From Anaerocolumna aminovalerica (GTDB lineage: Bacteria > Bacillota > Clostridia > Lachnospirales > Lachnospiraceae): a DNA stretch of 64,000 nucleotides. Below are positions 29,587 through 58,890 of this stretch, in pieces (the stretch's first letter is position 1; each line of letters begins with the position of its first letter). The notes under the pieces are model-generated. The model saw only the letters and a program-made list of their open reading frames with translations, was not told the DNA's origin and ran no database searches. The DNA is taken from the NCBI RefSeq assembly GCF_900115365.1, contig NZ_FOWD01000006.1, positions 1 through 64,000 on the forward strand, in the 5' to 3' direction. A program made the translations under genes and the position numbers.

Positions 29587-30615
29587 CTACTCTAAGTCAT
29601 CAAAATCAAAAGCAGCCGCTTTGGTATAATTGGTTACTTTCGCTTCAAAAAAGTCTGTTTTCGTACTATTTAAGTTGGAGAATCCTTCAATCCAGGCCAT
29701 TGGATTCTCTGTTATTTCAGGATATAGCTCCTCTAATCCAATTGCCCTTAATCTTAAGTTTCCTAAATACTTAATATATTTATCGATTAACTCATTGTTC
29801 ATCCCCAATATCTCATTATTGGTAACATATTGTCCCCATGCGATTTCATGCTCTACACCGGTACCCATCATTTCCCTGATTTCCTCTAGCATCTCTTTTG
29901 TAAATAACTGTGGGTTTTCATTTCTAAGTTCTTTCAATATATTCTGAAATAGAACCAGATGGGTAATTTCATCTCTATTGATATATTTAAAAATAGTACT
30001 TGTAGCAGTCATCTTACCCTGTCTGGCTAAGGTATAGAAGAAACTAAAGCCGGAGTAAAAATAAATTCCTTCTAATATGTAGTTGGCAACTACTGCCCTA
30101 AGAAAATTCTCTGTACTTGGTTCTTCATTGAACCTCTGATATATGTTGGCAATGTACTGATTTCTTCTTAGAAGATACTTATCTTCCCTCCATTCATCAT
30201 AAATTTTATCCCTTGTAACAGGGTTTGTTACGGTATCCAGAATATAGGAATAACTCTGGGCATGAATCTCCTCCTGAAAAGCCTGTATATTAAGAAGGGA
30301 AGAGACCTCCGGAGCCGTTATATATCTTGATAAATTCGGCAGGTTTTCACTTTGAACGGAATCAAGGAAATTTAAAAAGGAAATTATCTTATCAAAAGCA
30401 TTTCTTTCTCCATTGGTCAATAACGGGAATTGCTTAATATCTTCATTCAAAGATATTTCTTCCGGTATCCAGAAATTATTTAACATGGTTCTGTAAAATA
30501 GATTAGCCCAATCATACTTGATCCGGTTCCATTCTCTTAAATTAGTTGTATTTCCATTGATTAATGATTCTGTACCCCGTAATCCCTGTTCATTAAAAAT
30601 CTTTTTCTTATTCAT
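29587..30615 (-). CDS. nrdB: Class I ribonucleotide reductase, beta subunit
   Basis: A 342-residue ferritin-like protein. Diiron ligands appear as Asp85 (FLDSVQ), Glu115 and His118 (QEEIHAQSY), the Glu of LEGIYFYSGF near 190, and the Glu/His of RDEITHL near 222-226. Tyr122 in HAQSYSY stands at the tyrosyl-radical position of the E. coli enzyme. It makes the radical used by NrdA for deoxyribonucleotide synthesis and needs oxygen or an activated oxidant for assembly in known class Ia enzymes. It lies 224 bases downstream of nrdA and is presumably co-transcribed. The SD AAAGGG precedes the ATG. Confidence 0.92.
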   Translation of the reverse strand: MNKKKIFNEQGLRGTESLINGNTTNLREWNRIKYDWANLFYRTMLNNFWIPEEISLNEDIKQFPLLTNGERNAFDKIISFLNFLDSVQSENLPNLSRYITAPEVSSLLNIQAFQEEIHAQSYSYILDTVTNPVTRDKIYDEWREDKYLLRRNQYIANIYQRFNEEPSTENFLRAVVANYILEGIYFYSGFSFFYTLARQGKMTATSTIFKYINRDEITHLVLFQNILKELRNENPQLFTKEMLEEIREMMGTGVEHEIAWGQYVTNNEILGMNNELIDKYIKYLGNLRLRAIGLEELYPEITENPMAWIEGFSNLNSTKTDFFEAKVTNYTKAAAFDFDDLE

Positions 30616-30839
30616 TTTTACACCCTTTGTATATCACATCTGTAAACAGGTGTAATACTCTGCCTGCAGATACGATACTGCCATAAAAAATCAAGTTGAA
30701 AGAATAATTTTGCGGCAGCCTTCCTTCTATATATTTTCTTTCAACCTTCCAGTCACAATGCTTGTGTTTTCCAACAAACGGAGAATTCCAATATAGGAAA
30801 TTCCAAATATAGTCTTACGAAACTCATCTATTATTTCAT
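30616..30839 (-). other. nrdA-nrdB intergenic spacer
   Basis: These 224 bases hold no supported gene. On the minus strand a TTTCGTAAGACTATATTTGGAA-type AT-rich stretch and several weak dyads are visible. No promoter or terminator is clear enough to call, so read-through from nrdA is assumed. Confidence 0.4.
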
Positions 30840-33131
30840 TCAGCTGGAGCAGCTTGTACACTCATCCATTTCAAGTGACTGGTTTCTAACATAATAGATA
30901 GTTTTAACACCATTCTTCCAAGATTCTATATATAGGTTCAATATATCCTTTGCACTTAAATTTGGCGTAATATAAAGGTTAAAGGATTGTGCCTGATCAA
31001 TGTGCCTTTGACGAATACCGCAGGCTTTTATGCTATAAATCTGATTAATATAATGTGCTTCTTTATAAAGCCAGAAATTTTTCTCACTTAGGTCTGGTGC
31101 CGCCTTGGGCGTAAAACTGCCTTTCTTTTCCTCAATAAAAAATTTCTGAAAGATTGGGTCAATTCCTGCTGAGGTTCCTGCAATATTAGAAGTACTTCCT
31201 GTAGGAGCAACTGCCATAATATAACCGTTTCTTAACCCATATTTCTTTACCTCTTCTTTTAATTTCAGCCAACGGGGAGAATTGTAACCTCGTCTCTCGA
31301 AATATTTACCCGATTGCCATTCAGAACCTTCAAACTCCGGATAAGCACCCTTTTCCTTAGCAAGTTCCATAGAGGCTTTAATTGCTTCATATGCTATTTC
31401 TTCAAATAAAAGGTCAGCCTCCTTAAAATGTGCTTCGCTCTCCCATGTTATTCCCCTGTTTACAAGATAATGATGATACCCGCTGGTTCCCAAGCCGATT
31501 GCTCTGTATTTATCACTGGTAATTTTCGCTTCCGCCACCGGTGATTGATTTAAAGTTATTACATTGTCTAACATACGAATCTGAAGTGGAACGGTTTCTT
31601 TCAATTCATCTATATGAACGCGCCCAAGATTAATGGAATTCAAATTACATGTTACCATATCACCAGACTTTACCCTTGTTACTACATGACTTTCATTTGG
31701 ATCCCCTACAATGCTTTCCTCAATTAGAATGGACTCACTTACATTTTGGGCAATCTCATGACAAAGGTTGGAGGCATAAACCATTCCGGCATGTTTGTTG
31801 GGGTTGGCCTGATTTACAGTATCCCTGAAGAAAATAAACGGAGTTCCAGTTTCAACTGCACTTTTCATGATCTTTTTCATAATATCTAAGGCTGTTACTG
31901 TAATGCGTTCCAGATTTTGATTATTTTCACAGGCAAGATAATGTGCTGTAAATGCTTTGTTGTCTTTATCATCATAAAAGTTTTCCAGGTAAAATCCCAT
32001 TTCTTTGTATACCTGATATGGATCAAATAAAGACCAGCTTCCTCTTTCCTCCAATCTTTCCATAAATAGATCGGGAATACTTAAAGCTGGGAAAATGTCA
32101 TGAGCTTTTCTTCTATCGTCCCCATTATTGGTCCTTAGTTCCATAAATTCATAAAGATCTCTATGCCATATGTCCAGTGTAATGGAGGCTCCTCCCTTTC
32201 TTCTGCCAAGCTGATCTACCGCTACAGCAGTGTCATTATATAAACGAACCCATGGAATTACTCCACCGGAAGCATTTTTATACCCTCTTATTTCACTATT
32301 TAGTGCCCTGATTTTTCCTAGATAGATACCTAATGCACCACCATGTTTGGATACATTTGCAAACTTACTATTTACATCATAAATAGACCACAGATTATCT
32401 CCCACTACAGAAATAAAGCAGCTGCTTAATTGATGATATGGAGTGCCTGCGCTGGCAAGGGTTGGTGTGGCTACTGTCATCTTAAGTAAACTAAGCAGAT
32501 CATAAAACTTTTTGGCATACTCCATCTTTCTGCTGCCTTCCGGTATGGCAAGATGCATTGCAATGGCCAGAAAACGTTCCTGAGGCAACTCCAGAACTTC
32601 CTTATTAAAACCTTTAATTAAATATCTGTCAGCCAATAGCTTTAAACCCTCATAATTAAAAAGCAGATCTCTTTCCGGCTTTATATAAGCACCTAATTCC
32701 TTTATCTCTTCTTCCTTATATTCCGTTATTAAATATTCCCCGTAATATTTTTGTTCCACCAGCTTATGTACTAATGCAGAAAAATCTCCATAGCCAAAAT
32801 AATCATATCCTCTATTAATTGCAGCCTCTTTATACAAATCAGACATTAATAATCTTGCCGCTGCATATTGCCAGTTAATATTTGTGGTTTTTACCATATT
32901 GCCGTGGGCATCTTTTGTAGTCTGAATCATCTTTTCAATAGCTGTCTGAATAAGGACTTTTTGTATTTCCTTTGTGCTCATACCATCCCTAAACTGGATG
33001 TTGGAGTCCATTTCAAGTTCAATTGGATCGCAGCCGTTCAGACCCTCACATGCAAAAGCTACCATTTTCTTTGTTTTTTCAACGTAAAGAGGTTCATAAC
33101 TACCATTCCTCTTTTTTATTTTTATTTCCAT
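30840..33131 (-). CDS. nrdA: Class Ia ribonucleotide reductase, alpha subunit
   Basis: A 763-residue protein, close to the usual length of NrdA. It has an N-terminal ATP-cone (about residues 3-90) for allosteric activity control, the active-site Cys in QLSSCFIS (about 235), the NLCHE block with its Cys and Glu (about 450), a third Cys in VTCNLNS, the radical-transfer pair YY in KTIYYVRNQ, and the C-terminal redox pair CTSC. It reduces ribonucleoside diphosphates with NrdB. The ATP-cone argues for NrdA rather than NrdE. The SD AAGGAAGGG lies before the ATG. Its leader holds a cobalamin riboswitch and terminator, so expression should fall when B12 is plentiful. Confidence 0.93.
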   Translation of the reverse strand: MEIKIKKRNGSYEPLYVEKTKKMVAFACEGLNGCDPIELEMDSNIQFRDGMSTKEIQKVLIQTAIEKMIQTTKDAHGNMVKTTNINWQYAAARLLMSDLYKEAAINRGYDYFGYGDFSALVHKLVEQKYYGEYLITEYKEEEIKELGAYIKPERDLLFNYEGLKLLADRYLIKGFNKEVLELPQERFLAIAMHLAIPEGSRKMEYAKKFYDLLSLLKMTVATPTLASAGTPYHQLSSCFISVVGDNLWSIYDVNSKFANVSKHGGALGIYLGKIRALNSEIRGYKNASGGVIPWVRLYNDTAVAVDQLGRRKGGASITLDIWHRDLYEFMELRTNNGDDRRKAHDIFPALSIPDLFMERLEERGSWSLFDPYQVYKEMGFYLENFYDDKDNKAFTAHYLACENNQNLERITVTALDIMKKIMKSAVETGTPFIFFRDTVNQANPNKHAGMVYASNLCHEIAQNVSESILIEESIVGDPNESHVVTRVKSGDMVTCNLNSINLGRVHIDELKETVPLQIRMLDNVITLNQSPVAEAKITSDKYRAIGLGTSGYHHYLVNRGITWESEAHFKEADLLFEEIAYEAIKASMELAKEKGAYPEFEGSEWQSGKYFERRGYNSPRWLKLKEEVKKYGLRNGYIMAVAPTGSTSNIAGTSAGIDPIFQKFFIEEKKGSFTPKAAPDLSEKNFWLYKEAHYINQIYSIKACGIRQRHIDQAQSFNLYITPNLSAKDILNLYIESWKNGVKTIYYVRNQSLEMDECTSCSS

Positions 33132-33203
33132 GACACCCTTCCTTTCTCTCTTTAATTAATCATTAAAGAATTTCAATCCGCCAAACGTCTACACTTTTAG
33201 TTA

Positions 33204-33244
33204 AAAAGAAAAAGCCTCATAGTCAGAATGCAACTATAAGGCTT
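33204..33244 (-). terminator. Riboswitch-controlled intrinsic terminator upstream of nrdA
   Basis: On the minus strand GCCTTATAGT (33242-33233) pairs with ACTATGAGGC (33223-33214), with one G-U pair, followed by TTTTTCTTTTT. It stands between the cobalamin aptamer and the nrdA start, where an expression platform is expected. Confidence 0.8.
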
Positions 33245-33299
33245 AAATTATATCTATATTTATTATGAATACTAGGTACAAAATAAAACTCATTTACAT

Positions 33300-33562
33300 G
33301 AGCTTACCCTAATAAATATAGCATGTCCTGTCCTCACAGAATTGCTATTCTACAAACTTAGGCAGGTATTCTGACTTATACTTCAACATACATTCTCGCC
33401 TTCCCAGATATTCCAGTGGCTGATTTTAAATCCAGAAAATGTACTCTGTAAATACAGCAATGGGATTGTGCAGGATTCTCACCTGTCTTCCCTATTAATT
33501 CCACAACCCAAGGAATCGCCACAAGGCTTATCCTAAGGGATTGGAAACCTAAATTCTTGGTC
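33300..33562 (-). ncRNA. Cobalamin (adenosylcobalamin-type) riboswitch of nrdAB
   Basis: On the minus strand the conserved cobalamin-aptamer blocks occur in order: GGGAAGACAGGTGAGAATCC (complement of about 33501-33482), then CCCATTGCTGT, then the B12-box-like AGCCACTG with GGGAAGGC, then GTCAGAATACCTGCC closing the core. A further hairpin (ATAGCA/TGCTAT arms with an ACAGGA inner stem) sits downstream like the P13 element. Such RNAs bind coenzyme B12 and turn off the downstream gene. The 5' limit near 33562 and the 3' limit are approximate. Confidence 0.92.
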
Positions 33563-33592
33563 ATTATTAAAATATACTATTCATATTTGATT

Positions 33593-33621
33593 ATTATAAT
33601 ATATAAATATTATCATTGCAA
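33593..33621 (-). promoter_or_regulatory. Promoter of the riboswitch-nrdAB transcript
   Basis: On the minus strand the -35 is TTGCAA (33616-33621), the spacer is 17 bases and the -10 is TATAAT (33593-33598). This places the transcript start some 25 bases before the aptamer. Confidence 0.7.
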
Positions 33622-58645: not shown

Positions 58646-58890
58646 AAAAAAAACGTCTCTTTCGAATTACTATCCAGTAAATCGAAAGGGACGAGTACTA
58701 TTCACTCGCGGTTCCACCCTCATTGGTAATGTATCATTACCCGCTTCTTTCTGATTGTAACGTAATCAACGGACCGGATTAGGGCCACTCAGAGGTAGTC
58801 TTCAGATGATTCCTATTAAGATATTCTCAGCTAACATATCTCTCTCTGTAATATTCCACATCTTACTCGTCTCTTCAACGTATTAGGTGT
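58646..58890 (-). ncRNA. T-box riboswitch (Thr) with terminator
   Basis: On the minus strand the conserved T-box AGGGTGGAACCGCG occurs at 58720-58707. The terminator CGTCCCTTTCGA/TCGAAAGAGACG (58693-58682 with 58665-58654, one G-U) follows and ends in at least seven T residues. A plausible specifier ACC (Thr) stands in GACTACCTCTG at 58796-58794. Uncharged tRNA-Thr would stabilise the antiterminator and allow thrS expression. The 5' edge is approximate. Confidence 0.93.

Follow-up and report, generated by a model that had tools for sequence, protein, structure and literature searches.

Riboswitch-mediated control by vitamin B12 (cobalamin) was reportedly described by Borovok in 2006 for the class I ribonucleotide reductase genes nrdABS of Streptomyces. 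Passages in PMC4342826 and PMC4991794 cite this control of Streptomyces nrdABS, and those in PMC4342826 also annotate, from RNA sequencing, an adenosylcobalamin riboswitch at nrdAB of Bacillus methanolicus MGA3. For the anaerobe Propionibacterium acnes, part of PMC3848588 reports a riboswitch at nrdAB, with RNA sequencing indicating that transcription largely ends before the first gene. Among delta-proteobacteria, B12-elements are placed at nrdDG of Desulfovibrio vulgaris and Desulfuromonas in a section of PMC545781. Here we analyse the leader of nrdAB in Anaerocolumna aminovalerica (Lachnospiraceae), located in a 64,000-nucleotide stretch of contig NZ_FOWD01000006.1 (positions 1 to 64,000; hereafter the window). 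No report of a B12 switch at nrdAB of Lachnospiraceae was found in the open-licence literature, by searches that were not aimed at that family.

The leader, nrdA and nrdB lie on the minus strand between 33592 and 29587 (Table 1). An aptamer in the leader matches the cobalamin riboswitch family RF00174 at 89.4 bits (cut-off 31.5, E 8.9e-21) over model positions 1-189 of 189, and it scores 129.5 bits with a purpose-built riboswitch model whose training set included the window row. The leader very probably contains an RNA switch that senses vitamin B12, upstream of an oxygen-using class I reductase. Both genes are intact and exceed their equivalog cut-offs, NrdA with 1387 bits against 1214 and NrdB with 479 bits against 310. 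In NrdB, the radical-bearing tyrosine and the residues that bind the metal (D85, E115, H118, Y122, E182, E216 and H219) do not vary across 12 aligned rows; we take them to correspond to D84, E115, H118, Y122, E204, E238 and H241 of the Escherichia coli protein. The nearest solved sequence is chain C of 6zjk (646 bits), presumably a class I enzyme of Clostridium botulinum.

The original prediction, drawn from the letters of this stretch, had placed a cobalamin aptamer, an intrinsic terminator and a promoter with a 17-base spacer in the minus-strand leader, and had recognized Tyr122 and the diiron ligands in NrdB. The aptamer is borne out by the end-to-end Rfam match, the terminator by a stem-loop with a T tail (-16.4 kcal/mol, z -5.2; 7 terminators found in the scan against 3.0 expected) and the ligands, for iron or manganese, by their invariance. 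The promoter stood only in part: the motif TTGCAA-17-TATAAT exists, but promoter-like sites in the scan numbered 20 against 20.4 expected from shuffles, not above chance, and the match by itself is no evidence.

Table 1. Features of the nrdAB leader and genes, in window coordinates
Feature	Coordinates	Strand	Remarks
Candidate sigma-70 promoter, TTGCAA-17-TATAAT	33593..33621	-	10/12 consensus letters
Cobalamin riboswitch aptamer (RF00174)	33344..33538	-	Rfam match, full-length
L5 loop UCCCA	33461..33465	-	Read from the RF00174 alignment
Antiterminator strand GCAA-UU-CUGUGAGG	33332..33345	-	Predicted; overlaps P13
P13 hairpin UUCUGUGAGGACAGGA	33326..33341	-	Loop UG(A)GGA able to pair with L5; individually weak
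AU-rich hairpin	33254..33321	-	Stable; between P13 and terminator; inside the antiterminator helix in truncated foldings
Intrinsic terminator	33204..33244	-	Stem-loop 33244-33212, then T tail to about 33204
nrdA, class I ribonucleotide reductase large subunit with ATP cone, 763 amino acids	30840..33131	-	NF005483
nrdB, class I small subunit, 342 amino acids	29587..30615	-	NF007184

Downstream of the aptamer, a switching scheme of kissing loop, antiterminator and terminator can be drawn. The strand GCAA-UU-CUGUGAGG (33345-33332) is able to form 12 pairs with CCUUAUAG-UUGC (33241-33230), part of the terminator 5' arm plus its loop, at about -14 kcal/mol. When the leader is folded in silico from P13 onward, transcripts ending before the terminator 3' arm adopt the antiterminator form (-31.7 kcal/mol), and longer transcripts adopt P13 plus the terminator (-34.2, then -40.4 kcal/mol). 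When the P13 strand is shuffled, only 31 of 2000 versions pair equally well with the terminator arm. The AU-rich hairpin between P13 and the terminator may have arisen by insertion of a palindromic element.

Pattern search located a complementary loop for L5 downstream of nine of ten aptamers examined; at the single miss, L047, L5 was mis-picked (180 of 300 shuffles were as good). Of 300 shuffles each, the number as good as the native pairing was 0 for L002, 3 for L046, 7 for L117, 8 for L042, 12 for L044, 16 for both L001 and L003, and 42 for L048. The window pairing comprises five pairs and one bulged base, a bulge that recurs in five of the nine picks (window, L002, L042, L044 and L046). 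Relative to the L5/L13 pair UCCCG/CGGGA of L117, a locus discussed below, the window carries a compensatory change, G to A together with C to U. We regard this change, between just two sequences from distant lineages, as the strongest individual indication that the kissing loop operates.

The genome of A. aminovalerica (G000; 4,624,179 bases in 83 contigs, 99.86% complete) encodes one reductase of each class: the class I enzyme of the window, a class II enzyme and a class III NrdD. The adenosylcobalamin-dependent class II gene (contig C37, 10574-12970) matches TIGR02505 with 387.6 bits (cut-off 340), which rules out the absence of class II, and its product is of the monomeric triphosphate type, with 799 amino acids and an ATP-cone-like stretch at the N terminus. 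Within the genus, in a comparison that included genomes G004 and G002, class II enzymes are of two kinds: about 800 amino acids with an ATP-cone-like start (L006, 178-2577; 87% alike in G004), and about 700 amino acids with 44-47% identity, the latter in ten other genomes and truncated at a contig edge in one of these. RF00174 has four matches genome-wide, that at nrdAB included; the other three adjoin genes that, from inspection of the proteins by eye, seem to serve cobalamin synthesis, uptake of the btuFCD type and ECF-like transport. None was found upstream of nrdD in the 574 bases to the contig edge (NrdD starts at base 575). Elsewhere in the window, a T-box leader lies at 58684-58887 on the minus strand (107.7 bits).

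On the basis of this layout, we propose a transcription-terminating cobalamin riboswitch that keeps nrdAB off while B12 is abundant. We infer the direction of control and the ligand, most likely adenosylcobalamin, and hold this reading with high confidence. It draws further support from the published control of Streptomyces nrdABS, from the class II and class III enzymes of this genome and from the apparent B12-related surroundings of its three other cobalamin riboswitches. With B12 bound, L5 would kiss the P13 hairpin loop, and the kissed P13 would withhold its strand from the antiterminator, such that the terminator stem-loop forms and nrdAB is not made; the class II enzyme would then supply deoxynucleotides. 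With B12 absent, the strand 33345-33332 would pair with the terminator 5' arm before the 3' arm is transcribed, and the resulting antiterminator would let RNA polymerase read on into nrdAB. The link between terminator and aptamer is a folding model whose shuffle controls are mixed.

Several observations weigh against this proposal. As aligned by Rfam, P1 of the aptamer has a number of non-canonical pairs. The L5-L13 pairing of the window is equalled by 59 of 300 shuffles and is not significant alone. Shuffling the whole linker yields an equally good antiterminator in 65 of 500 cases, which is not unusual. The full-length leader folds to the terminator state at equilibrium without ligand, and the ON state would therefore need to arise kinetically. 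Finally, four genomes of the same genus (G008, G011, G012 and G014) carry nrdAB together with a class II enzyme and have no riboswitch at nrdAB; hence, the coupling is not needed.

An alternative is that the aptamer is intact while the switch is a relic or weak, with nrdAB controlled mainly at the promoter by NrdR or a metal or redox regulator, as it may be in short-leader relatives. In agreement with this view, the genome encodes NrdR, P1 pairs poorly, nearly all related loci scanned are without a riboswitch, and in five genomes of the genus an NrdR-like box precedes nrdA by 42-45 bases (matches with 14-16 of 16 letters allowed; the consensus is the one we assume for NrdR). Against it stand the conserved core, the matching L5/L13 change, the antiterminator and the terminator, all present together, and the lack of a good NrdR box at the window promoter, where a crude scan gave 12 of 16 letters; the best site in the window, with 13 of 16, falls within the leader. 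We consider a relic or weak switch improbable. Selectivity among cobalamin riboswitches for corrinoids varies, according to passages of PMC9600662, but a switch that answers mainly to another corrinoid or turns genes on is very improbable here, as a downstream terminator and an antiterminator overlapping P13 make up the layout of an OFF switch.

Returning to the OFF switch for nrdAB, we infer its physiological role from the gene inventory. The original prediction had applied the Streptomyces logic, in which B12 shuts off class I when class II can work, and had pointed to nrdJ and nrdDG as genes to look for elsewhere in the genome; nrdJ and nrdD are encoded, and the known B12 logic fits because class II and class III occur in the same genome as the nrdAB switch. 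Two outcomes that it had named as refuting, a missing RF00174 hit and a missing nrdJ, did not occur. It had also described an apparent anaerobe. Family searches did not find cytochrome bd or heme-copper oxidases in the genome, and the anaerobe reading thus fits. Two further statements fared less well. That a class I enzyme under such control would be odd for an anaerobe is not supported: P. acnes has the same arrangement, the same NrdB group occurs, among the matches listed, in the anaerobes Veillonella, Cellulosilyticum and Catonella, as well as in others, and class I enzymes are present in further genomes of the class (counts below). Likewise, loss of B12 alone need not force reliance on oxygen, since class III NrdD is present, as judged from the NrdD gene alone. 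We suggest that nrdAB would serve the state of no B12 and some oxygen, and that without oxygen class III could serve.

The B12 switch at nrdAB is a known kind of arrangement that looks rare among the relatives of this bacterium. NrdB matches occurred in 14 of 80 genomes of relatives, our own counted, and RF00174 was found at none of the 13 nrdB loci of the others, 12 of which have nrdA (L041 gave no nrdA match); one scan of 80 genomes applied a more stringent filter, at the cost of weak matches, and adjacency was judged by eye from coordinates. A second set consisted of the best 80 loci of at least 561 confirmed relatives in the same NrdB group. Of these, 79 named loci were scanned (L070 was omitted, being the same locus as L034) and 78 have nrdA, the stretch of L069 being without it. 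A riboswitch lies ahead of nrdA at only one of the 78, L117, from a metagenome-assembled genome (MAG) titled Bacilli bacterium RYN_352, as judged with model R1, which was built from 24 riboswitches, is sequence-heavy with 19 base pairs and may miss a very diverged riboswitch. An Rfam scan of 12 of these named loci gave no RF00174 match. Class-wide, 34 of 393 genomes (at least 90% completeness requested) have PF00268 above cut-off, and no RF00174 match lies in the roughly 5 kb that precede nrdB in the 33 other class I genomes, by coordinates read by eye. G460, with PF00268 below cut-off, was left out, and as the genome sets may overlap, their counts are not summed. One candidate, in G357, was rejected: the riboswitch ends about 7 kb upstream of the class I genes, before btuFCD-like genes (by eye), with an opposite-strand gene between. 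Two genomes of less than 2 Mb, G297 and G433, have 15 and 12 RF00174 matches (13 and 10 above cut-off), compared with 0-5 in 33 others.

The upstream regions of relatives show other elements. In the crude scan, NrdR-like boxes lie 42-45 bases ahead of nrdA at L029-L032 and L034, and L117 has apparently two, 346-379 bases ahead of nrdA, at and just before the start of its riboswitch match. L050, L051 and L053 have imperfect palindromes about 30-50 bases ahead of nrdA (GATAATAATAGTTATCATTATC in L050) that resemble Fur or PerR boxes; this suggests metal or peroxide control of nrdAB at these loci, where the riboswitch is missing. At L058 (genome G089), nrdA extends over two frames with internal stops and is either a broken gene or an assembly error.

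A tree built from concatenated NrdA and NrdB of 40 loci places the window in a group of 11 rows (support 99/96) with Konateibacter, Lachnotalea, Galacturonibacter, the MAGs L049 and L052 and five genomes from its own genus; the remaining ten rows are all without a riboswitch. L117 stands apart from the window, with Paenibacillus rows, at a support of 85/91 that is not strong. The simplest reading is a gain of the riboswitch on the window's branch, with repeated loss as the alternative. A search for a close duplicate of the leader was negative: in the best-scoring of 29 aptamers only 130 of 184 aligned letters are equal, and hence no source of the leader was found. A shared gene neighbourhood was also rejected, as only the ABC transporter among six nrdAB neighbours was matched, at 9 of 93 loci with 24-34% identity, in a limited test with loci that extend only some kilobases from nrdAB. 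There is about an even chance that nrdAB in this lineage recently captured a cobalamin riboswitch in place of a short promoter-controlled leader, that the lineage of L117 did so independently, and that the switch splits the roles of the three reductases of an anaerobe by B12, through the riboswitch, and by oxygen, through enzyme chemistry.

A class II enzyme is present in both riboswitch genomes (our own and G102) versus 5 of 25 without the riboswitch, among our own and 26 other genomes; PF02867 detects the monomeric class II type weakly, and some class II enzymes may have escaped these counts. The second enzymes of G102, G083, G096, G092 and G080 pass the class II models TIGR02504 or TIGR02505, and that of G008 is a 46% match to the NrdJ of A. 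aminovalerica; G011, G012 and G014 are further class II genomes without a riboswitch. The association of riboswitch and class II is only suggestive.

Close relatives that share the same nrdAB, some with class II, and differ in having the riboswitch thus offer a natural comparison. It lets one ask which selective forces tie a B12 sensor to an oxygen-dependent enzyme when the host is an anaerobe, and by what route riboswitches reach new genes. Repression by B12 of a B12-independent reductase is a well-established concept, and what this locus adds is its unusual distribution. As in A. aminovalerica, a cobalamin riboswitch reportedly precedes the class I genes in Streptomyces coelicolor, an aerobe that likewise encodes a class II enzyme; in contrast, no nrdS follows nrdB here, where an opposite-strand gene lies instead, and class III is also present. 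B. methanolicus MGA3, as far as described in the passages cited above, shares the riboswitch at nrdAB and membership of the Bacillota, but it is a methylotrophic Bacillus and belongs to another lineage. In D. vulgaris and Desulfuromonas, a B12-independent reductase was likewise proposed, in the section of PMC545781 noted above, to be repressed when the B12-dependent NrdJ can work, although there the switch acts on class III and not on class I. P. acnes, according to part of PMC3848588, resembles our bacterium in combining all three reductase classes (I, II and III) in a single genome and in having the riboswitch at nrdAB; its nrdDG also has a cobalamin riboswitch, whereas here the one on the reductase genes lies at nrdAB and none was found near nrdD.

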